Shown one piece after another: positions 5,626 to 18,088 of a stretch of 64,000 bases of DNA. Position 1 is the first letter of the stretch, and each line of letters begins with the position of its first letter. Under the pieces are notes generated by a model. That model did no database searches, was not told the origin of the DNA, and worked only from the letters and a program-made list of their open reading frames with translations. Origin of the DNA: Vicinamibacterales bacterium (lineage in GTDB: Bacteria > Acidobacteriota > Vicinamibacteria > Vicinamibacterales > 2-12-FULL-66-21); the NCBI GenBank assembly GCA_035699745.1, contig DASSPH010000069.1, positions 124,001 through 188,000 of the forward strand, written 5' to 3'. The translations under genes were made by a program, and so were the position numbers.

Positions 5626-7434
5626 ATGCTGCGCAACATTCTTGCGGCGCTGTCCTGCCTGGGCCTGTGTCTCGGAATCGCCTGGACGGCCAACACGCTC
5701 GGTGACGTCCAGCCGCTGAAAGCGACCGCGCTCGGCTTCCGCGGCCCCATCGTCACCCTGCTGCTCTCGCTGGCGTGCGCATTGGCATTCGTGGCATCGA
5801 GCGTCGAGCCGAGCCGCGCTCTCCGGCGACCCGCAGTGATCGCCTGGCTGTTGACGATCGCGGGCACGTTGCTGGTGGCGGGCTTCTCCGTTTTCTTCCG
5901 CTGGTCGTCAGGCGATCTGCACCCCTTCGGTGACCCCGCGATCCTGGAGCTTTACACGCTGCACGCGGTGCGCGGAGTGTGGTACCTCGGACCGTATTCG
6001 CAATTCGGCTGGCACCATCCGGGGCCGTCGTATTTCTACCTGCTCGCGCCCCTCTACCTGCTCAGCGGCGAGAAGACCATAGCGCTGCACGTCGGCGCGT
6101 TCGCGATCAATCTGCTGTCGCTTTCCGCGATTGGCTGCACGCTCTACCGCTACGCGAGCACAGCGGTGTTCTGCGCGGGGACACTGGTGCTGGGCGCCTA
6201 TGTTCTGAGGTTGGAGCCGATCATCTCGAACTACTGGAATCCGCACATCGTGATCCTGCCGGCGGCGTTGTACCTGGTTTTGACGTCGGCGCTGGCGGCG
6301 GGCCGGCACGGTGCGCTCTTGCCGTCCGTACTCGTTGGCTCGTTTCTGGTGCAAACCCACATCTCGCTGGGCCCCTACGTGTTGACATTGGGCGGCGCGT
6401 CGCTGGCGGCTGGGGCATTCTGGCGGGAACGGACCCAGACGCCGGACCGATCGTCGTCCTTCCGCATGTGGATCGGCGCGTCCGCGGGGCTGACCGCGCT
6501 TCTCTGGCTGCTCCCGATCGTCGAAGAGGCGAGACACTCGCCTGGAAATCTCACACGAATCGCGCAATTCTTCGGAGAGCCCTCGCCCGGCCAGGAGCTG
6601 CAGGCCGCAGTCGCCGTCTGGGGCCAGATGATCTGCGCGTTGTATCAGACGGACCTCGCGGTCCCGGAGGGGCTGCCGCTCCGAATCCCGCAGCACTGGA
6701 CGACGCCTGCGAGCCTGTCGGCAGTGGCGCAGATCCTCGTGCTGGCGGCACTGGCTGTGGATGCGCTGCGCCGCCAGGAGCGGTTCCACGGCGCGCTGGC
6801 GGCGTGCGGCCTCATCGCGTCGCTCGTCGGGCTGTGGTCGATCACCCGCGTGAGATCGCTGATCGGCGACTACATGATCTTCTGGCTCTCCGCGATCGGC
6901 GCGCTGAACTGGGCCCTGATCGCCGGTCTCGCGATGACGCGAGCCGCCGGCGTGCGAATGCGCGCGGTCCAGCAGACGATCGCGCTTGCGACAGCGGCAG
7001 TCGTGCTGTGGCTGTTCGTCGACGTCGGCAGCGGTCAACTCAAACGGGCACGGCGGCAGGCGCTCAGGCCGACCCGCGGCGGCGCAAGCGTTGTGCAGGT
7101 TGCTTCGGACGCCATCCTCGACGATATGCGGCGCAATCGTGTCCAGCGTCCGTTGTTGCAGATGAGCACGCCGGATTGGGGAGTCGCGGCGGGTGTCCTG
7201 TTGCAGGTCTACAAAAGGGGTCGGACCCCGGCGGTGCACCCGAGCCTGGTACCGCTTTTTGGCGCACCGCTCGCTCCCGATGGCCGGGAAGACCGCCTGT
7301 ACGTGATCGCAGACGCCGCGAGCCAGGCGGTGCTCACGCAGCCCGTCGCGGGCACCGTGATCGGCAGCGTCGGGGATGTCTACATCCACGCCTCGCCCAT
7401 CACGCCGCAGCCGATGGGGCCGGCGAAACGATGA
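5626..7434 (+). CDS. Polytopic membrane protein with YSQFGWHHPGP and WNPH motifs
   Basis: 602 aa, starting 3 bp after the preceding stop. Two N-terminal helices are followed by FGDPAILELYTLHAVRG and the motif YSQFGWHHPGPSYFYLLAP, then YWNPHIVILP. These motifs recur in a family of uncharacterised bacterial GT39-like membrane proteins; the acidic D in the first loop fits a GT-C catalytic loop. At least nine hydrophobic segments precede a soluble C-terminal domain from about residue 480. The coding sequence contains a REP-like palindrome at 7213-7229, translated in frame as part of YKRGRTPA. Last gene of the plus-strand run; converges on the M20 gene 24 bp away. Confidence 0.72.
   Translation: MLRNILAALSCLGLCLGIAWTANTLGDVQPLKATALGFRGPIVTLLLSLACALAFVASSVEPSRALRRPAVIAWLLTIAGTLLVAGFSVFFRWSSGDLHPFGDPAILELYTLHAVRGVWYLGPYSQFGWHHPGPSYFYLLAPLYLLSGEKTIALHVGAFAINLLSLSAIGCTLYRYASTAVFCAGTLVLGAYVLRLEPIISNYWNPHIVILPAALYLVLTSALAAGRHGALLPSVLVGSFLVQTHISLGPYVLTLGGASLAAGAFWRERTQTPDRSSSFRMWIGASAGLTALLWLLPIVEEARHSPGNLTRIAQFFGEPSPGQELQAAVAVWGQMICALYQTDLAVPEGLPLRIPQHWTTPASLSAVAQILVLAALAVDALRRQERFHGALAACGLIASLVGLWSITRVRSLIGDYMIFWLSAIGALNWALIAGLAMTRAAGVRMRAVQQTIALATAAVVLWLFVDVGSGQLKRARRQALRPTRGGASVVQVASDAILDDMRRNRVQRPLLQMSTPDWGVAAGVLLQVYKRGRTPAVHPSLVPLFGAPLAPDGREDRLYVIADAASQAVLTQPVAGTVIGSVGDVYIHASPITPQPMGPAKR
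7213..7229. repeat. Short REP-like palindrome inside a coding region
   Basis: AAAAGGGGTCGGACCCC: six-base arms GGGGTC and GACCCC around a central G, preceded by an A run. It resembles the A-run-plus-GGGG-palindrome of the larger element at 41566-41655. It lies within the third membrane-protein gene and keeps its frame. Confidence 0.55.
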
Positions 7435-7458: not shown

Positions 7459-8793
7459 CTACTTGGCCGCGGTTTCCCTGATGGCCTCGAACAGGATCTG
7501 AATCGCCGGTCCCAGGGCGTCCAGCGGCATGAACTCCGCGTCGCCGTGCATCGACAGGATCGAGGCGGCGGGGATGATTCCGGGAAACACGCCGTAGCTC
7601 TTCACCCCGCGCGGGCGGAAGCCGTTCGAGTCGGTGCCGAACGGCACCGTCATCGGCGTGACGATCGCCTGCGGATGATGCCGTGTGATGGCGGACTCGA
7701 GCGCCCGGTAGAGCGGCGTCTCCTGCGAGCTGACCACCGGATCGTCGCCTTCATAGATCACGTCGATCTTGATCGACGGCTCCGCGAGCCTGCCTTCGAG
7801 CAGCTTCAGCCACTGCGCCGCGGACGTGCCGGGCAGCACGCGGCAGTCGAGCGTCGCCTCGGCGACGGACGGGATGACGTTGGCGCGCGGCGGATCGCCG
7901 ACGCCGGATCGCAGGCTGGTGAGCGAGATGGTCGAGCGCTGAATCGCGTTGTTGAACTTGTTCGCGACCAGCGGACCGCCGATCCGCGACTTCATCGTCT
8001 CGACGACAGGGAACGGCGCCGACTCGATCGGCGCGGCGAACAGCCGCGACAGCGCGCGCATCAACCGCTCGTTCGGATTCTGATCGTGCGGCTGGGAGCC
8101 GTGTCCCGCGACCCCCTCGGCGCGCAGCCGCAGCCACATGATCTTCTTCTCCGCGACCGAGATGCCGAACACCAGCTTGCCGGGGGTGAACATGTCGCGG
8201 CTGCCGAAGCCTCCCTCGTCGATCACGTACTCGGGATCCAGCTCGGCATAGTGGTTCTTGCGCATCCAGCTCGCGCCCAGTTCGCCGCCGACCTCCTCGT
8301 CGGGGACGAACATCAGAAGCACGTCACGCGTGAGCGGCACCTTCTGGCGGTGCAGCATCAGGAACGCGTAGAGGTGCGACGTGCCGATCCCCTTCATGTC
8401 GATCGTGCCGCGTCCCCACATCCTGCCGTCGGCGATCTCCGCGCCGAACGGGTCCTTCGTCCAGCGCGACGGATCGGTGGGGACGACGTCCATGTGGCTG
8501 AGGAGGAGAATCGGCTTGCCGCCGGTCCCGGTTCCCTTGAGCCGGGACAGCAGGATCGATCGGCCCGGCGCCGACTCGTAGCGCTTCACCTCGAGCCCTT
8601 CGCGCGCGAGGATTGCCGCCAGGTAGTCCGCGGCTTTGGTGACGTCGCCGGGAGGGTTCGACGTGTTGATCCGGACGTAGCCCTGCAGCGTCTTCAGCGC
8701 CTCCGCTTCGACCGCTTTCCAGTCGGGCGACTGCGCCGAAGCGAGGGCGGGAATCGTGAGCAGGGCGAGGAGCAGGCGGGCGTGTCGGCGCAT
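7459..8793 (-). CDS. Secreted M20 family metallopeptidase (ArgE/DapE/CPG2 type)
   Basis: 444 aa. ATG at 8793 gives a signal peptide (MRRHARLLLALLTIPALASA), whereas the open frame further upstream does not code for anything recognisable. Zinc-site motifs are in order: H100 and D102 in LLSHMDVVP, the metal-bridging Asp in RGTIDMKG, the Glu pair in PDEEVGG, and a C-terminal His. The lid/dimerisation domain lies in the middle (VAGHGSQPH, then NVIPSVAEATLD). Likely cleaves terminal amino acids or acyl groups from peptides in the periplasm; the exact substrate cannot be read from sequence. Divergent from the LanC-like gene across 69 bp; convergent with the GT cluster. Confidence 0.88.
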   Translation of the reverse strand: MRRHARLLLALLTIPALASAQSPDWKAVEAEALKTLQGYVRINTSNPPGDVTKAADYLAAILAREGLEVKRYESAPGRSILLSRLKGTGTGGKPILLLSHMDVVPTDPSRWTKDPFGAEIADGRMWGRGTIDMKGIGTSHLYAFLMLHRQKVPLTRDVLLMFVPDEEVGGELGASWMRKNHYAELDPEYVIDEGGFGSRDMFTPGKLVFGISVAEKKIMWLRLRAEGVAGHGSQPHDQNPNERLMRALSRLFAAPIESAPFPVVETMKSRIGGPLVANKFNNAIQRSTISLTSLRSGVGDPPRANVIPSVAEATLDCRVLPGTSAAQWLKLLEGRLAEPSIKIDVIYEGDDPVVSSQETPLYRALESAITRHHPQAIVTPMTVPFGTDSNGFRPRGVKSYGVFPGIIPAASILSMHGDAEFMPLDALGPAIQILFEAIRETAAK

Positions 8794-8850
8794 CTCCCCG
8801 ATTCTAACCAGTCGCGGCCGCGGCTGCGCGGACGCGCCTCCCGAGTGGCG

Positions 8851-8856
8851 TATAGT
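8851..8856 (+). promoter_or_regulatory. -10 box (TATAGT) very close to the LanC-like ATG
   Basis: TATAGT ends six bases before the ATG at 8863, so a sigma-70-type start site would fall at or next to the initiation codon and give a leaderless mRNA. No Shine-Dalgarno is visible before this ATG, which agrees. The -35 region is weak. Confidence 0.45.
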
Positions 8857-8862
8857 GCGCGC

Positions 8863-10191
8863 ATGAGGACTCGCATCTTCACGGTCGCTCTCCTCATCGC
8901 GGTGGTGGGCCTCCTCGCCAGCGCCCGCGAGGCAGCGCAGACCCGGACCCAGCCGACCTACCGCGACGTCGCGGTCGATGCCGCCAAATGGATCCGCAAC
9001 TCGCGGATGGAGACCTTGTTCGGGATTGCGTGGCCCGCGGACCCGCAGGATCCCAAGACGGTCAGCACCGCGCTCTACAGCGGCTCGCCCGGGGTCGTCC
9101 TCTTCCTGCTCGAACTGCACGCCGCCACCGGTGACGCCGCCTACCTCGCCGACGCGAAGCGCGGCGCCGACGAGCTGATGACCAAGGTGTCGTCCGAACC
9201 GCAGATGGGCCTCTACACGGGCGTCGCCGGGCTGGGCTTCATGCTCGGCGAGACCTGGCGCGCGACCAGGGACGACAAGTACCGCAAGGCGGCGCTCGGG
9301 GCGGTCCGCATTCTTGCCGACAAGGCCGGCGAGGTCGGCAAGGGGGTGCAGTGGAACAACTCGAACGACATCATTTCCGGCACTGCGGGCATCGGCCTGT
9401 TCCTGCTGTACGCGTCGGACACCTTGAAGGAGGAGAAGGCCGGCTGGCTCGCCGTGCGCGCGGCGGACCGGCTGCTCGAAGTCGGCATCGCCGACAAGGG
9501 GGGCACCAAGTGGGCGATGGATCCGAACGTCGCGCGGATGATGCCGAACTTCTCGCACGGCACCGCCGGGATTGCCTACTTCCTCGCCGCGGTGCATAAA
9601 GCAACCGGCGGACGCCGGTTCCTCGACGGCGCGCTCTCGGGCGCGCGGTACCTCCTGGCGATCGCGAAGACCGAAGGGGACATCTGCCTCGTCCCGCACA
9701 ATCAGCCGGACGGGCTCGACCTTTATTATCTCGGCTGGTGCCACGGCCCGGCGGGCACCGCCCGCCTGTTCTACCAGCTCGCGCAGATCACCGGCGACAA
9801 GACGTGGATGTCGTGGGTGCAGCGTTCGGCGAACGGCGTGCTGACCAGCGGCATCCCGCAACAGCGCACGCCCGGGTTCTGGAACAACGTCAGCCAGTGC
9901 TGCGGCAACGCCGGCGTCGCCCAGTTCATGCTCGATCTCCACAACGTGACGCGCGAGGCGAAGTATCTCGCGTTTGCCGAGCGGGTCACCGCCGATCTGC
10001 TCGCGCGCGCGACGCGCGACGTCAGGGGAACCCGCTGGGTGCAGGCGGAGCATCGCGTGCAGCCGGACCTGCTGGTCGCGCAGACCGGCTACATGCAGGG
10101 GGCGGCAGGCATCGGCATGTGGCTGCTGCGGCTCGACGCCCAGCAGCGGAAGCGCACGCCGCTCGTCCGCTTCCCCGATTCACCATGGTAG
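8863..10191 (+). CDS. Exported LanC-like (lanthionine cyclase fold) protein with Cys3 zinc site
   Basis: 442 aa, with a clear N-terminal signal peptide (MRTRIFTVALLIAVVGLLAS). The rest is the alpha/alpha-barrel of LanC-like proteins, shown by repeated G-x-AG turns: SGSPGVVLFLLEL, TGVAGLGFML, SGTAGIGLFLL, HGTAGIAYFL, HGPAGTARLF, GNAGVAQFML and QGAAGIGMWLL. Zinc ligands: C293 in GWCHGPAG and C346-C347 in SQCCGNAG. In NisC the second motif is Cys-His; here it is Cys-Cys, as in the CCG subgroup of class II synthetases such as ProcM. There is no precursor peptide, dehydratase or transporter gene nearby, so this is not a lantibiotic cluster. It may be a periplasmic thiol or zinc enzyme. Upstream of cydA by 36 bp, same strand. 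Confidence 0.85.
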   Translation: MRTRIFTVALLIAVVGLLASAREAAQTRTQPTYRDVAVDAAKWIRNSRMETLFGIAWPADPQDPKTVSTALYSGSPGVVLFLLELHAATGDAAYLADAKRGADELMTKVSSEPQMGLYTGVAGLGFMLGETWRATRDDKYRKAALGAVRILADKAGEVGKGVQWNNSNDIISGTAGIGLFLLYASDTLKEEKAGWLAVRAADRLLEVGIADKGGTKWAMDPNVARMMPNFSHGTAGIAYFLAAVHKATGGRRFLDGALSGARYLLAIAKTEGDICLVPHNQPDGLDLYYLGWCHGPAGTARLFYQLAQITGDKTWMSWVQRSANGVLTSGIPQQRTPGFWNNVSQCCGNAGVAQFMLDLHNVTREAKYLAFAERVTADLLARATRDVRGTRWVQAEHRVQPDLLVAQTGYMQGAAGIGMWLLRLDAQQRKRTPLVRFPDSPW

Positions 10192-10227
10192 CTCGCGGCG
10201 AATGCCCCCGGCAGGGAGCGTGGAGAC

Positions 10228-11547
10228 GTGCCTGATGCCGTGATCGCGGCGCGCTGGCAGTTCGCGTTCACGATCATGTTCCACTACCTCTTCCCCATCC
10301 TGACGATGGGATTGGGGGTGCTGATCGCGGTCTTCAAGACGATCGAGCTGCGCACCGGGAATCCGCAGCACGGCATCGCCGCGCGCTTCTGGGCGCGGAT
10401 CTTCGCCATCACGTTCGCCGCCGGAGTCGTCACCGGCATCCCGATGGAGTTCCAGTTCGGCACCAACTGGGCGCGCTTCTCCCGCTATGCCGGGCCGGTG
10501 GTCGGCCAGACGCTGTTCATGGAAGGGGTGTTCGCGTTCTTCGCCGAATCCTCGCTGCTCGGCGTTTTCCTCTTCGGGGAAGGACGCATCGGCCGGCGCG
10601 CGCACTGGCTCGCCGCGGTGGGCGTGGCGCTCGGCGCGGTGCTCTCCGGCTACTTCATCGTCGCCACCAACGCCTGGATGCAGCATCCCGTCGCCTACCG
10701 CGCGGCCGGTGACCACGTCGAGCTGACCAGTCTCTGGGGGCTGCTGACCAACCCCTACCTGCGCTGGCAGTATCCGCACGTGATCTCGGGATCGATGGTG
10801 ACCGCGTCGATGGTGGTGGCGGGGATCGGCGCGTTCTACCTGCTCGCCCGCCGCCACGAAGAGACCGCGCGGGTGTTCGTGCGCGTCGGCGTCGTGTCGG
10901 CGGCGCTGTTCTCGCTGCTGTCGCTGTTTCCCACCGGCGCCTTCCACGGCGAGAACATCACCCGGTTTCAGCCGGCGAAGATGGCGGCGATGGAAGGGGT
11001 GTTCAGGACCCGGGAAGGCGCGCCGCTCGCGATCATCGGCATGCCCGACACCGAGCGGCAGGAACTGATGGATCCGATCTACGTGCCCGGCATCCTCAGC
11101 TATCTCGCCTACGGCAACTTCTCCGCCCGCGTCACCGGGCTGAACGACATCCCGAAGGATCTGCACCCGCCGATCGAGATCGTCTACTACGCGTACCACA
11201 TCATGGTGGGGCTCGGCACCATCTTCATCGCCGTCACCGCCGCCGCCGCGTTCTTCCTGTGGCGCGGCACGCTGTTCGATCGCCGCGGCATGCTCTGGAT
11301 CCTGATGCTGACGATGCCGTTTCCCTACGTCGCGAACGAGGCGGGATGGGTGGTCGCGGAAGTGGGGCGCCAGCCGTGGACGGTCTACGGCCTTCTGCGC
11401 GTGGCGGACTCGTCGTCGACCAACGTCACCGCCGGCATGACCTACTTCACGCTGTTCGGCTTCATGGGGCTCTATCTCGTGCTCGGCATCCTCTACCTGC
11501 TGCTCTTCGCGCGCATCGTCGACGAGGGCCCGCGAGAGCAGCCATGA
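10228..11547 (+). CDS. cydA: Cytochrome bd-type ubiquinol oxidase subunit I
   Basis: 439 aa, GTG start. Subunit I of the quinol oxidase that reduces O2 to water at the cytoplasmic membrane without pumping protons. H19 (in FHYLFP) and H184 (in YPHVISGS) fit the heme axial positions. The signature GRQPW (residues 380-384, GRQPWTVYGLLR) is present, and about nine membrane helices are visible. The length and the short segment around residues 245-300 fit the short Q-loop or cyanide-insensitive (CioA-like) subgroup rather than the long E. coli form. The stop overlaps the cydB ATG. The 36-bp gap to the LanC-like gene allows co-transcription. Confidence 0.95.
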   Translation: MPDAVIAARWQFAFTIMFHYLFPILTMGLGVLIAVFKTIELRTGNPQHGIAARFWARIFAITFAAGVVTGIPMEFQFGTNWARFSRYAGPVVGQTLFMEGVFAFFAESSLLGVFLFGEGRIGRRAHWLAAVGVALGAVLSGYFIVATNAWMQHPVAYRAAGDHVELTSLWGLLTNPYLRWQYPHVISGSMVTASMVVAGIGAFYLLARRHEETARVFVRVGVVSAALFSLLSLFPTGAFHGENITRFQPAKMAAMEGVFRTREGAPLAIIGMPDTERQELMDPIYVPGILSYLAYGNFSARVTGLNDIPKDLHPPIEIVYYAYHIMVGLGTIFIAVTAAAAFFLWRGTLFDRRGMLWILMLTMPFPYVANEAGWVVAEVGRQPWTVYGLLRVADSSSTNVTAGMTYFTLFGFMGLYLVLGILYLLLFARIVDEGPREQP

Positions 11548-12554
11548 GCCTGAACAGCGCCTGGTTCGTGCTGCTCGCCTTCACCCTTGCCGTGTATGCG
11601 ATCCTCGACGGTTTCGACCTCGGTCTCGGCGCCATCCACCTGCGCCTCGGCCGCACGCGGCAGGAGCGCGAACGGCTGATCGACACCATCGGCCCGGTGT
11701 GGAACGGCAACGAAGTGTGGCTGCTGGCCGCCGGCGGCTCGATGGTGGTCGCATTCCCGAACCTGTACGCCGCGAGCTTCAGCGGCTTCTACCTGGCGCT
11801 CATGCTGGTGCTCTGGCTGCTCCTGCTCCGCGGCCTCGGGATCGAGTTCCGGCATCAGATTCATCACCCGATGTGGGAGGACGCGTGGGACGTGGTCTTC
11901 GCGCTGTCCAGCGCGCTGCTGGCGCTGCTGTTCGGCGTCGCGCTGGCGAACGTGCTGCGCGGCGTGCCGCTCGATGACACGGGCGTGTTCCGCGGCACGT
12001 TCACCGTGCTGCTCAACCCGTTCTCGCTCCTCGGCGGAGTGCTGTCGGTGTCGACGCTGGCGCTGCACGGAGCCTGCTGGGCGGCGCTGCGGACCGACGG
12101 AGATCTTCAGCTGCGCGCCCGGCGGTTCGCGTCGATGCTGTGGACGCCGTCGGCGCTGCTGCTGCTCGCCGTCATCGCCGCCAGCTTCGTCGTCCGGCCC
12201 GGGTTCGCCGGGAACTTCACCCGTCATCCGATCCTCTTCGCGTTCCCGCTCGCCGCCGCCGCCGCACTGGCGTCGAACCGGGTCTCGATCGCGCGGCATC
12301 AGGACAGGCGCGCCTTCATCGCCTCGTCCGCGTATATCGCGGGCGTGCTCGGATCCGTCGCCGCAGGCCTGTACCCGACGCTGCTGCCGGCCTCGGGAAG
12401 CGGCACGCCGCTCGATATCTACAACGCCGCCGCGCCGCCGCAGAGCCTGCGGATCGCGATGGTCGTGTATCTGGCGGGTCTGGCGATCGTCAGCGTCTAT
12501 CTGGTCGCGGTCTATCGAGTGTGGAAGGGGAAGGCCGGCGCGGTGTATCGCTGA
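11544..12554 (+). CDS. cydB: Cytochrome bd-type ubiquinol oxidase subunit II
   Basis: 336 aa. ATG at 11544 overlaps the cydA stop (ATGA). The N-terminal family signature is intact: FVLLAFTLAVYAILDGFDLG, then IGPVWNGNEVWLL. Eight to nine hydrophobic segments follow. It pairs with CydA to form the heterodimer. No cydX-type small ORF follows; the next gene (malQ) is convergent with a 4-bp gap. cydDC assembly genes are not in the window. Confidence 0.95.
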   Translation: MSLNSAWFVLLAFTLAVYAILDGFDLGLGAIHLRLGRTRQERERLIDTIGPVWNGNEVWLLAAGGSMVVAFPNLYAASFSGFYLALMLVLWLLLLRGLGIEFRHQIHHPMWEDAWDVVFALSSALLALLFGVALANVLRGVPLDDTGVFRGTFTVLLNPFSLLGGVLSVSTLALHGACWAALRTDGDLQLRARRFASMLWTPSALLLLAVIAASFVVRPGFAGNFTRHPILFAFPLAAAAALASNRVSIARHQDRRAFIASSAYIAGVLGSVAAGLYPTLLPASGSGTPLDIYNAAAPPQSLRIAMVVYLAGLAIVSVYLVAVYRVWKGKAGAVYR

Positions 12555-12558
12555 CGGC

Positions 12559-14118
12559 TCACAGCCGCTCGAACCGCTCCGCCAGCGCCGCCATGAACGC
12601 GGCGCGCTCGCGGCCGCCGGCGTCCCTCTGCAGATCCTCGACCGGCCACGGGAGCCGCCACGTCCAGTTCTGCGCATCGATCAGCGCCGGCGTGTTGACG
12701 CGCTCGCGCCAGCCGAACACGTCGTGAATCGGCAGCAGAACGATGTCCGACGACGACGCGTAGAGCGCGGTGACGATGGCATCGCGTACCGGCGCGCCGA
12801 ACGGCGACTCCGGATCCAACCCGCGTCCGACGATGGCCGCGACGGCGCGGCGCTCGTCGAGATCCGCCTCGTCCCACCACTGGGCGACGGTCTCGGTGTC
12901 GTGCGTTCCACTGGTGGCGACCGAGATTCGGGGATACGTCGCGGGATCCACGAACGGCTTGCCTTCCGCATCCCAGTGCCGCTCCCAGCGCAGCACCTTG
13001 TACCCGGGGATCTCGAGGCGCAGCAGCGTCTCGCGAACGAAGGCTGGAATGACGCCGAGATCCTCGGCGATGATCCGCGCGCCGGTCGCGCTCAGCACGT
13101 CGAGCACTCGTTCCCCCTGGACGACCTGCTCGCCCTGATCCGCGGGGACGAACGCGGCCTCGCCCGACTGCTCGCGCACGTAGGTGCGGAAGAAGCCGAC
13201 GAGATGATCGACGCGGTAGCCGTCGTACAGATCGGCGCTCCGCCGCGCCCGCGCCGCGAGCCAGCGGAAGCCGCCGGCGGCGATCGTCTTCCAGCGATAC
13301 GCCGGAAACCCCCAGTCCTGCCCGGTTTCGGAGAACGCGTCCGGCGGCGCCCCCACCGACGCATCGAGGCGGAAATCCTGCTGCCGCGACCAGACGTCGG
13401 CGCTGTCGCCGCTGACCATGAACGGAAAGTCGCCGAAGACGCCGATGCCGCAGGCGTCGCGCGCCTCCGCCCACTGATCGGCCGCGAGCCACTGCAGGTA
13501 GGAGTAGAACAGGATCTCGCCGGCGAGATCCTGCCGGGCGCCCGCCAGCGCCGCGGGGTGGTGATCGCGGACCGCCTCGGGCCAGTCGCGCCAGTAGCGC
13601 CCGTCTTCCCGCGCGTGGAGCGCGCGGAACAGCGCGTAATCGTCCAGCCACCAGCGCGCGCGATCGAGGAAGCGCTTCAAGCGCTGCGCTCGCGGCGTGT
13701 TCGCGTTCCACTCCGTCGTCCGGAAGTGCTCGAAGCCGGCGCGCAGCGCGCGCGTCTTGATCGCCCGCACGCCGGCGTAGTCGACGGCCGGCGCCGCCCG
13801 CGCCGCCTCGAGCCGCGCGCGGTCGTCCGCCGAGAGCAACCGCTCGCCGCCGAGCGACTCGATGTCCGGGACCGCCGACGGCGCGATGAAGATCGGATCG
13901 ATCGCCATCGCGCTCATCGCCGAGTACGGGGAATTCTGGCCGTCCGCCATCTCGTTGATCGGCAGCAGCTGCACGAACGACGCGCCGGCCTCCGCCAGCC
14001 ACGCGCCGAGACGCGGCAGATCGCCGATCTCGCCGATGCCCCAGCTGGCGCGCGAGGGGATCGAGAACAGCGGCACCAGCACGCCGGCGTGCCGGCCGTG
14101 GAAGAAATCACGCGCCAT
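12559..14118 (-). CDS. malQ: 4-alpha-glucanotransferase (GH77, amylomaltase)
   Basis: 519 aa, the usual size of bacterial amylomaltases. It transfers alpha-1,4-glucan segments between maltooligosaccharides in the cytoplasm. The GH77/GH13 catalytic residues are visible: nucleophile D304 in YRVDHLVGF, acid/base E352 in IAEDLGVIP and D407 in SGTHDTETV. The N-terminal GVLVPLFSIPSRASWGIGE and LLPINEMADGQNSPYSA are typical of the family. Its start overlaps the end of the upstream aminotransferase gene by 11 bp, so the two are likely coupled. No other glycogen or maltose genes lie nearby. Confidence 0.95.
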   Translation of the reverse strand: MARDFFHGRHAGVLVPLFSIPSRASWGIGEIGDLPRLGAWLAEAGASFVQLLPINEMADGQNSPYSAMSAMAIDPIFIAPSAVPDIESLGGERLLSADDRARLEAARAAPAVDYAGVRAIKTRALRAGFEHFRTTEWNANTPRAQRLKRFLDRARWWLDDYALFRALHAREDGRYWRDWPEAVRDHHPAALAGARQDLAGEILFYSYLQWLAADQWAEARDACGIGVFGDFPFMVSGDSADVWSRQQDFRLDASVGAPPDAFSETGQDWGFPAYRWKTIAAGGFRWLAARARRSADLYDGYRVDHLVGFFRTYVREQSGEAAFVPADQGEQVVQGERVLDVLSATGARIIAEDLGVIPAFVRETLLRLEIPGYKVLRWERHWDAEGKPFVDPATYPRISVATSGTHDTETVAQWWDEADLDERRAVAAIVGRGLDPESPFGAPVRDAIVTALYASSSDIVLLPIHDVFGWRERVNTPALIDAQNWTWRLPWPVEDLQRDAGGRERAAFMAALAERFERL

Positions 14119-15277: not shown

Positions 15278-15326
15278 CTCTCAAGGATATTTGGTAAGTT
15301 GGTGATCTGGCGAGGTTGTGATCTTC

Positions 15327-16658
15327 ATGTTCCGCACAATTGTCCTGGTTGCCGCTCTGCTTCAGGCCGGCGCCGCGCCGAAAGCCGGTCTGGACGTGCC
15401 GTTCACCCAGTTCACGCTGCCCAACGGCATGCACGTGATCCTGCACGAGGACCACACGGTTCCGCTCGTGACGGTGAACGTCTGGTACCACGTGGGATCC
15501 GCCCGGGAAAAGCCCGGACGCACCGGTTTCGCGCACCTCTTCGAGCACCTGATGTTCATGGGATCGAAGCACGCGAAATACGGCGACTTCGATCGCCTGC
15601 TCGAGGCCGCCGGCGGCACCAACAACGCGTCCACCGCGGAGGACCGGACCAACTACTACATCGACGTGCCGTCGAACGCGCTCGAGCTCGCGCTGTTCCT
15701 CGAATCGGATCGCATGGCCTACCTGCTCGACGCGATGTCGCCGAAGACGGTGGACGCGCAGCGCGACGTGGTGAAGAACGAGCGCCGCGAAGGGGTCGAG
15801 AACGCGCCCTATGGCATGGCGTCGATCGAGATCGCCGGGATGCTCTATCCGAAGGGACATCCGTACCGCTGGCCGGTGATCGGCCACATGGAGGATCTCA
15901 CCGCGGCGAGCTACGAGGACGTGGTCGAGTTCTTCCGCACCTACTACCAGCCGGCGAACGCCAGCCTCGTCGTCGCCGGCGACATCGAGCCGGCGGGAAC
16001 CCGCGCGCTGGTCGAGAAATGGTTCGCCGAGGTGAAGCCCGGAACGGCGCCGCTGCCGCCGATCGACTACCCGCGGCCGAACGTCACCGCCGTGCAGAAG
16101 AAGACGATCACGGATCGCGTGCAACTGCCTCGCCTCTATCTGACCTGGGTCAGCCCGCCGCACCTGACGCCGGGCGACGCGGAGCTGGACGTGGTGTCGT
16201 CCCTGCTCGCCGGCGGCAAGAACTCGCGGCTCTACAAGCGGCTGGTCTACGAGCTGCAGATCGCGCAGGACGTCGCGGCCGTCCAGGCCTCGAAGACGTT
16301 GAATTCGGAGTACCAGATCATCGTCACCGCCCGGCCGAACGCGTCGATCGATCGGATCCGCGGCATCGTCGACGAGGAGCTCCGCAGGCTGCAACAGGCG
16401 CCGCCGTCGGACCGCGAGTTCCAGCGCGCGCTGAACCAGATCGAGTCGAGCTTCTACGATCGGATGGAGCGGATTGGCGCCTACGGCGGCGTCGGCGATC
16501 AGCTGAACGCGTATTACTTTGCGGCCGGCAATCCCGGCTACTTCAACGAGGATCTCGCGCGCTACCGCGCGCTCTCGCCCGCCGACGTCACCGCCGCGGC
16601 GGCGCGATTCCTGCCGCTCGACAGGCGTGTCGAGCTGATCGTGGAGCCGCAGAAATGA
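15327..16658 (+). CDS. M16 family zinc peptidase (catalytic member)
   Basis: 443 aa from ATG 15327. A GTG at 15318 is an alternative, but its spacing to GAGG (15312-15315) is too short. A short hydrophobic N-terminus (FRTIVLVAALLQAGA) suggests export. The inverted zinc motif HxxEH is intact as H70-LFE-H74, followed by the family stretch NNASTAEDRTNYY and an ERREG helix that would supply the distal Glu. It is a pitrilysin/processing-protease-like enzyme degrading unfolded peptides in the periplasm. The stop overlaps the next M16 gene. The two together should form the M16B heterodimer. Confidence 0.92.
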   Translation: MFRTIVLVAALLQAGAAPKAGLDVPFTQFTLPNGMHVILHEDHTVPLVTVNVWYHVGSAREKPGRTGFAHLFEHLMFMGSKHAKYGDFDRLLEAAGGTNNASTAEDRTNYYIDVPSNALELALFLESDRMAYLLDAMSPKTVDAQRDVVKNERREGVENAPYGMASIEIAGMLYPKGHPYRWPVIGHMEDLTAASYEDVVEFFRTYYQPANASLVVAGDIEPAGTRALVEKWFAEVKPGTAPLPPIDYPRPNVTAVQKKTITDRVQLPRLYLTWVSPPHLTPGDAELDVVSSLLAGGKNSRLYKRLVYELQIAQDVAAVQASKTLNSEYQIIVTARPNASIDRIRGIVDEELRRLQQAPPSDREFQRALNQIESSFYDRMERIGAYGGVGDQLNAYYFAAGNPGYFNEDLARYRALSPADVTAAAARFLPLDRRVELIVEPQK

Positions 16659-18088
16659 GACGAACGAGCCTGGCCGCGGCGGCCGTGTGCCTGCTGTGCG
16701 CGGCGGCGGCCGCGCAGACGCCCGTGGATCGCTCCAAACCGCCGGCGGCGGGCCCGGCGCCCGCGCTGAAGCTGCCGCCGATCGAGACGCGAACGCTCTC
16801 GAACGGGCTGCAGGTGCGCGTGATGGGCGTCCGCAAGGTGCCGACCGTGCACGTGGCGCTGACGATCCGCACCGGCGTGGCCGCGGATCCCGCCGGCAAG
16901 TTCGGCCTGGCGAGCCTGACCGCGGACATGCTGGACGAAGGGGCGGGCTCGCGCAACGCCCTCGAGATCGCCGACGCGATCGACTTCCTCGGCGCGGACC
17001 TGTCGGCGTCCGGCGGGGTGGACGCCACCTCCGTCGAGCTGCACGTGCCGGTGGCGCGGCTGGCCGACGCGCTCCCCCTCATGGCGGACGTCGTCGTCCG
17101 CCCGACGTTCCCGGAGGCGGAGCTGAACCGCCTGCGCGAGGAGCGGCTGGCGGGTCTCCTGGAGATGCAGGATGATCCCGAGCAGCTGATCACGGCCGCG
17201 TTCCCGCGCCTGGTGTTCGGCGCGGAGCATCGCTACGGCTCGCCGGCCATCGGCACCCCCGCGTCGCTCAAGAGCATCGCGGTCTCCGATCTCGAGGCCT
17301 TCCACGCGGCCAACATCCGTCCCGCGAACGCCGTTCTCGTCGTCGCCGGCGACGTGACCGCCGACGGCGTGCTGCCGCAGCTCGAGCGAGCGTTCGGCGG
17401 CTGGAAGGGAGCCGAAGGGGGAGCATCCCCTGCGCCGGCGAACCCGCCCGCCGCAGCGGCGCGCCGTGTGTACCTGATCGACACGCCGGGCGCGGCGCAG
17501 TCGCAGATCCGCATCGGCGGCGTCGGCGTGCCGCGCTCGACGCCGGACTACTTCGCGCTGCGGGTGCTCAACACCATCCTCGGCGAAGCGTTCACCTCGC
17601 GTCTGAACACCAACCTGCGCGAGGTCCACGGCTACGCCTACGGCGCCGCGTCGCGATTCGACATGCGCCTGAGCGCCGGCCCGTTCTATGCCGCCGCGGG
17701 CGTGCAGACCGACAAGACGGCCGAGGCGCTGAAGGAGTTCTTCGTCGAGCTGAACCGGATCCACGAGCCCGTCCCGTCCGACGAGCTCGAGAAGGCGAAG
17801 AACTATCTGGCGCTGCTCCTGCCGCGCAACTTCGAGACCACGCGCGGCACCGCGGCGTCGCTGGCGCAGGCCTGGATCTACAACCTGCCGGCGGATTACT
17901 ACACGACCTACGCCGATCGCGTGCGCGCCGTCACGGCGGCCGATGTCAAACGCGCCGCCGACAAGTACATCGTTCCCGGGAAGGTGGCCGTGGTGATCGT
18001 CGGCGACCGCAAGGCGATCGAACCGGGCGTCAAGGCGCTCAACCTCGGGCCGCTGACCGTCGTCCAGCCCGGCGAGATTTTCAGATAG
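16655..18088 (+). CDS. M16 family protein lacking the zinc motif (partner subunit)
   Basis: 477 aa. ATG 16655 overlaps the preceding stop; signal peptide MRRTSLAAAAVCLLCAAAAA. Has both M16 half-domains, but where HxxEH is expected it reads LTADMLDEGAG, so it cannot bind zinc in the usual way. The C-terminal half carries the R/Y pair segment (FTSRLNTNLREVHGYAYG) typical of the non-catalytic subunit. In M16B systems an active and an inactive chain form a heterodimer; gene order and coupling here fit that. The low-complexity Ala/Pro stretch around residues 255-268 is probably the inter-domain linker. Confidence 0.9.
   Translation: MRRTSLAAAAVCLLCAAAAAQTPVDRSKPPAAGPAPALKLPPIETRTLSNGLQVRVMGVRKVPTVHVALTIRTGVAADPAGKFGLASLTADMLDEGAGSRNALEIADAIDFLGADLSASGGVDATSVELHVPVARLADALPLMADVVVRPTFPEAELNRLREERLAGLLEMQDDPEQLITAAFPRLVFGAEHRYGSPAIGTPASLKSIAVSDLEAFHAANIRPANAVLVVAGDVTADGVLPQLERAFGGWKGAEGGASPAPANPPAAAARRVYLIDTPGAAQSQIRIGGVGVPRSTPDYFALRVLNTILGEAFTSRLNTNLREVHGYAYGAASRFDMRLSAGPFYAAAGVQTDKTAEALKEFFVELNRIHEPVPSDELEKAKNYLALLLPRNFETTRGTAASLAQAWIYNLPADYYTTYADRVRAVTAADVKRAADKYIVPGKVAVVIVGDRKAIEPGVKALNLGPLTVVQPGEIFR

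Follow-up and report, generated by a model that had tools for sequence, protein, structure and literature searches.

The gene at positions 8863 to 10191 on the plus strand of the window (the whole 64,000-nucleotide stretch of DNA that was analyzed) encodes a 442-aa protein belonging to what is apparently a sizeable, undescribed family of exported LanC-like zinc proteins. Sequence comparison supports the family, the fold, the ligands, the catalytic histidines, and export. With a confidence that stops a little short of an even chance, we read the protein as a LanC-type enzyme with a Zn(Cys)3 site that works outside the cytoplasm and would carry out thiol/dehydroamino-acid chemistry (a forward or reverse Michael reaction) on peptide-derived substrates; its metal content, reaction, direction, and substrate are what we infer in this reading. 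The protein seems to belong neither to a lanthipeptide pathway nor to a cytochrome bd system. No description of exported LanC proteins was found in the literature searched (open-license PMC papers).

Family membership and fold

The gene is complete, running from an ATG at 8863 to a TAG at 10191, and its assignment draws on profile search, conservation, a structure model, and structure comparison. The protein matched the LANC_like profile PF05147 at 134.7 bits (cutoff, 23.2), with residues 68 to 433 covering profile positions 4 to 346 of 350. Among NCBIfam models, class IV and class II synthetases were nearest but far below their cutoffs. A genome search found no second LANC_like gene in the window genome. 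No promoter or terminator was found in a scan of positions 8700 to 12700, a scan that is uninformative for the host organism, and PADLOC gave no defense-system match.

Searches used a profile (A2) of 12 sequences, including the window protein; the other 11 were 53 to 67% identical to it, and all 12 matched PF05147. At an E value of ≤1e-60, the profile recovered family members from three phyla: Acidobacteriota (15 of 396 genomes), Planctomycetota (25 of 392), and Gemmatimonadota (30 of 249). Within the order of the window, a single-protein search (E ≤ 1e-10) matched 10 of 162 genomes. Besides the window, score and motif placed in the family proteins from G006 and G052 and a fragment in G072; six others were ordinary LanC proteins or domains. 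In a tree of 78 rows, five cytoplasmic LanC relatives split from the 73 family rows with 100/100 support; this tree is unrooted, long branches meet at the split, and it omits seven rows that were short or damaged. A C-terminal motif, WVQAEHRVQPDLLVAQTGYMQG (residues 392 to 413; positions 10036 to 10101, plus strand; alignment A1), is specific to the family. The corresponding stretch, WxQAE(H/N)RxxPxxLVAQTGYMQG, is conserved across the exported family and absent from the cytoplasmic LanC relatives; in the core family, E396 is kept in 59, R398 in 60, P401 in 60, Q407 in 58, and G413 in 59 of 60 members.

Several members have unusual architectures or placements. In four Planctomycetota proteins (L147:7976-10993, L053:414-3431, L145:3119-6151, and L149:6331-9375), the LanC domain is fused to about 450 C-terminal residues that had no Pfam match and, for the L147 copy, no PDB match; by eye, the blocks G(C/N)GDPEGxWLFxDxRN and CHxGxxxRxFVEGDIVSTFG in this domain recall caspase-like peptidases. 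A 1,441-aa protein (L048:4820-9145) combines DUF5107, TPR repeats, and a LanC domain. Genome G512, filed in Acidobacteriota, carries a LanC-amidohydrolase pair (L036/L047) whose LanC is 92% identical to a Gemmatimonadota copy, which reflects either recent transfer or contamination.

The sequence supports a LanC-type (α/α) toroid fold for the window protein. An AF2 model built from 12 sequences had a pLDDT of 83.2 and a pTM of 0.85 and was weak at residues 332 to 345, part of the zinc loop, and 395 to 407. VIA-align matched the model to LanC, LanCL, LanM (LicM2), and class III/IV cyclase structures at Z scores of 31 to 36, as expected of this toroid. The top match was CuvL (Z 36.1, rmsd 3.2, 356 residues aligned), and others included GCR2 (34.7), MadC (34.6), LanCL2 (33.8), NisC (33.3), and LanCL1 (32.5); the best non-LanC row was a GH47 mannosidase (23.9).

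A carbohydrate-active toroid with a zinc-bound cysteine nucleophile, like the GH127/GH146 β-L-arabinofuranosidases, might resemble LanC by fold only. Those enzymes use a zinc-coordinated cysteine (PMC10728902, in excerpt), and the apparent export of the window protein would suit a glycosidase, as many are exported. All 12 A2 members matched the GH127 profile, although weakly (4e-13 at best), and 9 of 12 matched GH76 or GH88 profiles. However, the window protein scored 34.3 bits against GH127 (cutoff, 24.9), far below its LANC_like score, and the best-matching part (residues 31 to 109) is a repeat stretch that excludes the cysteines, with no stretch passing alone. The spacing of WCHG and CCG and the presence of His232 are as in LanC, LanC chains rank above sugar enzymes in VIA-align, and no sugar-utilization gene recurred among the shared neighbor clusters scanned. 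No GH127 entry was among the best 50 rows of Foldseek or VIA-align, which is not evidence of a different fold. We therefore consider a carbohydrate-active function unlikely, and a GH127-type glycosidase was rejected as a candidate, the matches to it being weak profile matches only.

Export-type N-termini

LanC enzymes in the literature consulted act on intracellular peptides or proteins, and the first-pass annotation had proposed that this one is exported. Its N-terminus, MRTRIFTVALLIAVVGLLASA, reads as a Sec-type signal (positions 8863 to 8925, plus strand), with an n-region containing RTR, a hydrophobic core, and ASA at the likely cleavage site, the exact position of which is a prediction. 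The proposal is borne out comparatively: export-type N-termini (Sec-like, lipobox, or Tat) were called in 68 of 74 family members versus none of the five cytoplasmic LanC relatives, a pattern that points away from a cytoplasmic location. The set of 74 included the window protein, with four duplicates and truncated or fragment rows dropped beforehand. N-termini were classed by simple criteria for Tat, lipobox, and Sec-like features, which also accepted 14% of shuffled N-terminal regions and 12% of 432 internal protein stretches.

By phylum, export was called for 17 of 19 members from Acidobacteriota, 23 of 26 from Planctomycetota (some rows classed as Tat here may be lipoproteins), and 28 of 29 from Gemmatimonadota, where all 28 have a twin-arginine motif. 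Among the six members with no export call (L014, L035, L037, L069, L071, and L106), visual inspection shows a lipobox-like LSAGC in L014 and a Tat-like RRAWI start in L106, and L037, L069, and L071 have long N-terminal extensions. The case for export rests most firmly on the fact that one and the same domain follows signals of different types. These comparisons support an extracytoplasmic location, probably reached via Sec for the window protein and via Tat for its Gemmatimonadota relatives.

Putative zinc site and catalytic residues

The putative zinc ligands, all encoded on the plus strand, are C293 (positions 9739 to 9741) in W292-C293-H294-G and C346 and C347 (9898 to 9900 and 9901 to 9903) in Q345-C346-C347-G, the residues at which the first-pass annotation had correctly placed them. 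The Cys-Cys-Cys set proposed there is invariant in the core family, comprising 60 rows that score at least 400 bits (window included; three are fragments): C293, C346, C347, and H294 (9742 to 9744) were each present in 60 of 60, H232 in the motif NFSHGTAG (9556 to 9558) in 59, and D169 (9367 to 9369) in 58. Among all 78 rows above 200 bits, C293 was found in 76, being absent from L040 and L041 (genomes G380 and G415). These divergent members, which have Tat-like N-termini, retain neither H232 nor any of the three cysteine ligands.

In the alignment, H232 falls on LanCL1 His219, H294 on His277, C293 on C276, and C346-C347 on C322-H323; we take C276, C322, and H323 to be the zinc ligands of LanCL1. 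The protein has the zinc triad Cys-Cys-(His or Cys) and general-acid histidine of LANC_like proteins, and these ligands support a Zn(Cys)3 site, in which we infer that the metal is zinc. In LanCL1, His219 acts as the general acid and His277 stabilizes the enolate, and a role for the zinc is also described (PMC9934072, in excerpt).

The near invariance of these histidines and ligands also counts against a noncatalytic function. It is conceivable that the protein is a zinc-binding or thiol-sensing scaffold for peptides or partner peptidases outside the cytoplasm, as the LanC fusions to TPR repeats and DUF5107 and to the unannotated C-terminal domain might suggest, along with the retention of the fold signature in L040 and L041 after loss of the ligands. 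Nothing in a scaffold role would require the core family to keep its catalytic histidines and ligands, and we think such a role improbable.

An enzymatic LanC-type reading invites comparison with characterized systems. The class I cyclases NisC and MadC share the stand-alone LanC fold, with CHG as the ligand pair of NisC, but no dehydratase or precursor context like theirs was found for the window protein. NisC also differs in having Tyr285 at the place of His294 (PMC9934072). The class II ProcM-like synthetases share with the window protein the Cys-Cys-Cys triad (PMC11251773) and a histidine at the His277 position (PMC9934072), to the extent that the excerpts of these papers describe them. 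They differ in having a LanM dehydratase domain, which the 442-aa exported protein lacks in a Pfam scan. The class IV synthetase CuvL provides both the best structural match, through its cyclase domain (PDB 8car/8cav), and the best PDB sequence match, and QCCG occurs in both proteins in the alignment. CuvL, though, is a trifunctional synthetase with a PDB-annotated Ser/Thr kinase, unlike the stand-alone, exported window protein. The CCG motif had earlier been taken as a ProcM type. The motif is present and the CCC triad is a group already recognized among lanthipeptide cyclase domains (PMC11251773, in excerpt), but because that group is known in cyclases and QCCG also occurs in CuvL, the motif is not special to ProcM.

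Human LanCL1 and LanCL2 also have a stand-alone LanC fold, and their His219 and His277 have equivalents in the window protein; the third ligand is His there and Cys here, and the window protein, unlike them, appears to be exported. The glutathione contacts listed for LanCL1 in an excerpt of PMC9934072 are R4, H274, K317, H323, R364, D367, and E374, of which R4, R364, and D367 could not be placed in the alignment. By alignment, family members have G or S in place of H274 and Cys in place of H323, E374 corresponds to Q412, and K317 lacks a conserved equivalent. A glutathione-type enzyme, as suggested in the first-pass annotation, is not favored because the H274, K317, and E374 contacts are missing; by the same reasoning a LanCL-type glutathione transferase, most of whose placeable contacts are absent, was set aside.

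Gene neighborhoods and proposed function

Downstream of the LanC-like gene on the same strand lie cydA (cytochrome bd subunit I; positions 10228 to 11547, or from 10240), 36 bp past the LanC stop (48 bp with the later start), and cydB (subunit II; 11544 to 12554, plus strand; 299.3 bits). This adjacency is not general. We found cydA in 17 of 59 LanC-carrying genomes, three of the 17 with weak matches. Across 65 LanC regions (954 kb), the only CydA relatives near LanC were those in the window, L147, and L053, so that adjacency is limited to 3 of 59 genomes in two lineages (the window and two related Planctomycetota). In L147 and L053, cydA is divergent from the gene for the 1,005-aa LanC fusion and, in L053, is cut by the contig end. 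The nearest relatives, G006 and G052, have neighbors other than cydAB. Accordingly, the link to respiration suggested earlier does not hold as a rule, the LanC-cydAB neighborhood proved not to be conserved on survey, and cydAB was rejected as a generally conserved partner.

It is still worth asking whether the protein could be a redox or respiratory partner of cytochrome bd, for example, a periplasmic thiol-adduct enzyme made together with cydAB. Besides the 36-bp spacing, cydA in the second lineage (G542 and G517) is the divergently oriented neighbor of a distant LanC homologue. With the window set aside, about 0.016 placements of cydA within 3 kb were expected, compared with one independent lineage observed. 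This is suggestive at most of a local LanC-cydA link in some species. Set against it are the low frequency of cydA among LanC genomes, the lack of the arrangement in the nearest relatives, and, in the second lineage, the opposite gene order and the fusion protein of about 1,000 aa, and we regard a cytochrome bd partnership as highly improbable.

Exported peptidases and amidohydrolases recur near LanC more often than cydA does. In the window, an M20 peptidase with its own signal-like N-terminus (positions 7459 to 8793, minus strand; 112.2 bits) is divergent from the LanC gene, and M20 relatives occur near LanC in L122 and L124 as well. M19 dipeptidases were found in 10 of 62 LanC regions, in about six independent placements on the tree, compared with 0.68 genes expected over 59 regions (Poisson P of ~8e-5 by hand; ~0.04 after a Bonferroni-type correction, M19 having been chosen post hoc as the most recurrent neighbor cluster among 606 called genes). 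Exported PD40-amidohydrolases lie on both sides of LanC in L023, and one precedes LanC in a Gemmatimonadota clade, the genes overlapping in L047. Such genes are abundant in Gemmatimonadota (5 to 18 in many genomes; 0.43 placements within 4 kb expected in the sampled genomes), so this adjacency could be due to chance. Further neighbors include M20, Amidohydro_3 of the D-aminoacylase type, penicillin amidase, M64, and S10 carboxypeptidase, as well as a pyridoxal decarboxylase and a xanthine/uracil-type permease. Overall, neighborhoods are highly variable, and many regions have no peptide theme. The neighbor counts given here are minimum values: the codon model used for gene calling pooled genomes that differ in composition, and as a result the LanC gene itself went uncalled in 8 of the 64 and 8 of the 62 regions, the window region among them. 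Genes were also called in G380 and G415 (L051 and L052), but the 59-genome counts do not include these two.

Three other arrangements were noticed by eye. In two Acidobacteriota regions (L020:6827-8849 and L022:7566-9507), LanC sits between rpmA- and obgE-like genes in an otherwise housekeeping cluster. In the window, positions 5626 to 7434 encode a membrane-like 602-aa protein with no Pfam match, and positions 15318 to 18088 hold two adjacent, similar genes of the same neighbor cluster that look like M16 peptidases.

As the first-pass annotation had noted for lantibiotic genes, no lanthipeptide genes were recognized among the neighbors scanned in the window and its relatives. The LanM dehydratase profile PF13575 had no match in the window genome (G000) or in G006 and G052, with positive controls matching in G094 and G154; a LanB search (PF04738) had no match in the window genome but is uninformative, as controls matched nowhere either. 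These results bear on whether the protein could be a maturase that acts after secretion, installing thioether rings in a ribosomal peptide that is itself exported. The LanC-type active site is kept, and CCG enzymes such as ProcM are described as substrate-tolerant cyclases in an excerpt of PMC11667668. Yet the dehydratase was not found, the search of the window genome gave a single LANC_like gene, and we noticed no small gene for a precursor recurring in the called neighbor clusters. We regard a maturase as very unlikely.

Since the LanC residues are all kept, lanthipeptide surroundings are lacking, and the protein is apparently exported, we favor its reading as a thiol/dehydroamino-acid enzyme. 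In the proposed mechanism, the (α/α) toroid would hold zinc via C293, C346, and C347, and this metal would serve to bind a thiolate and activate it. On the acceptor side, H294 would polarize the carbonyl group of the dehydroamino acid, and H232 would donate or abstract the α-proton, as in LanCL1. A C-S bond could thus be made or broken, outside the cytoplasm, between a small or peptidic thiol and an acceptor of the dehydroalanine or dehydrobutyrine type. The acceptor would most likely be peptide- or amino acid-derived material handled by the exported peptidases and amidohydrolases. We know of no extracytoplasmic thiol co-substrate in these bacteria.

M19 enzymes are classically known as dehydropeptidases. 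LanC chemistry is documented to be reversible (PMC9934072). It is possible, though doubtful, that the exported LanC proteins run in the reverse Michael direction, opening lanthionine or cysteine-thioether links in peptides to yield a thiol and a dehydropeptide, with nearby exported M19, D-aminoacylase-type, and Xaa-Pro-type hydrolases consuming the products. If so, the protein would be a thioether-bond-cleaving enzyme of scavenging or lantibiotic resistance.

The distribution of the family over about 70 searched genomes, three phyla, and three kinds of signal, together with the conserved Cys3 set and LanC histidines, implies that thiol/dehydroamino-acid chemistry may take place outside the cytoplasm. 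Small and stand-alone, proteins of this family could serve as catalysts that form or cleave thioethers.
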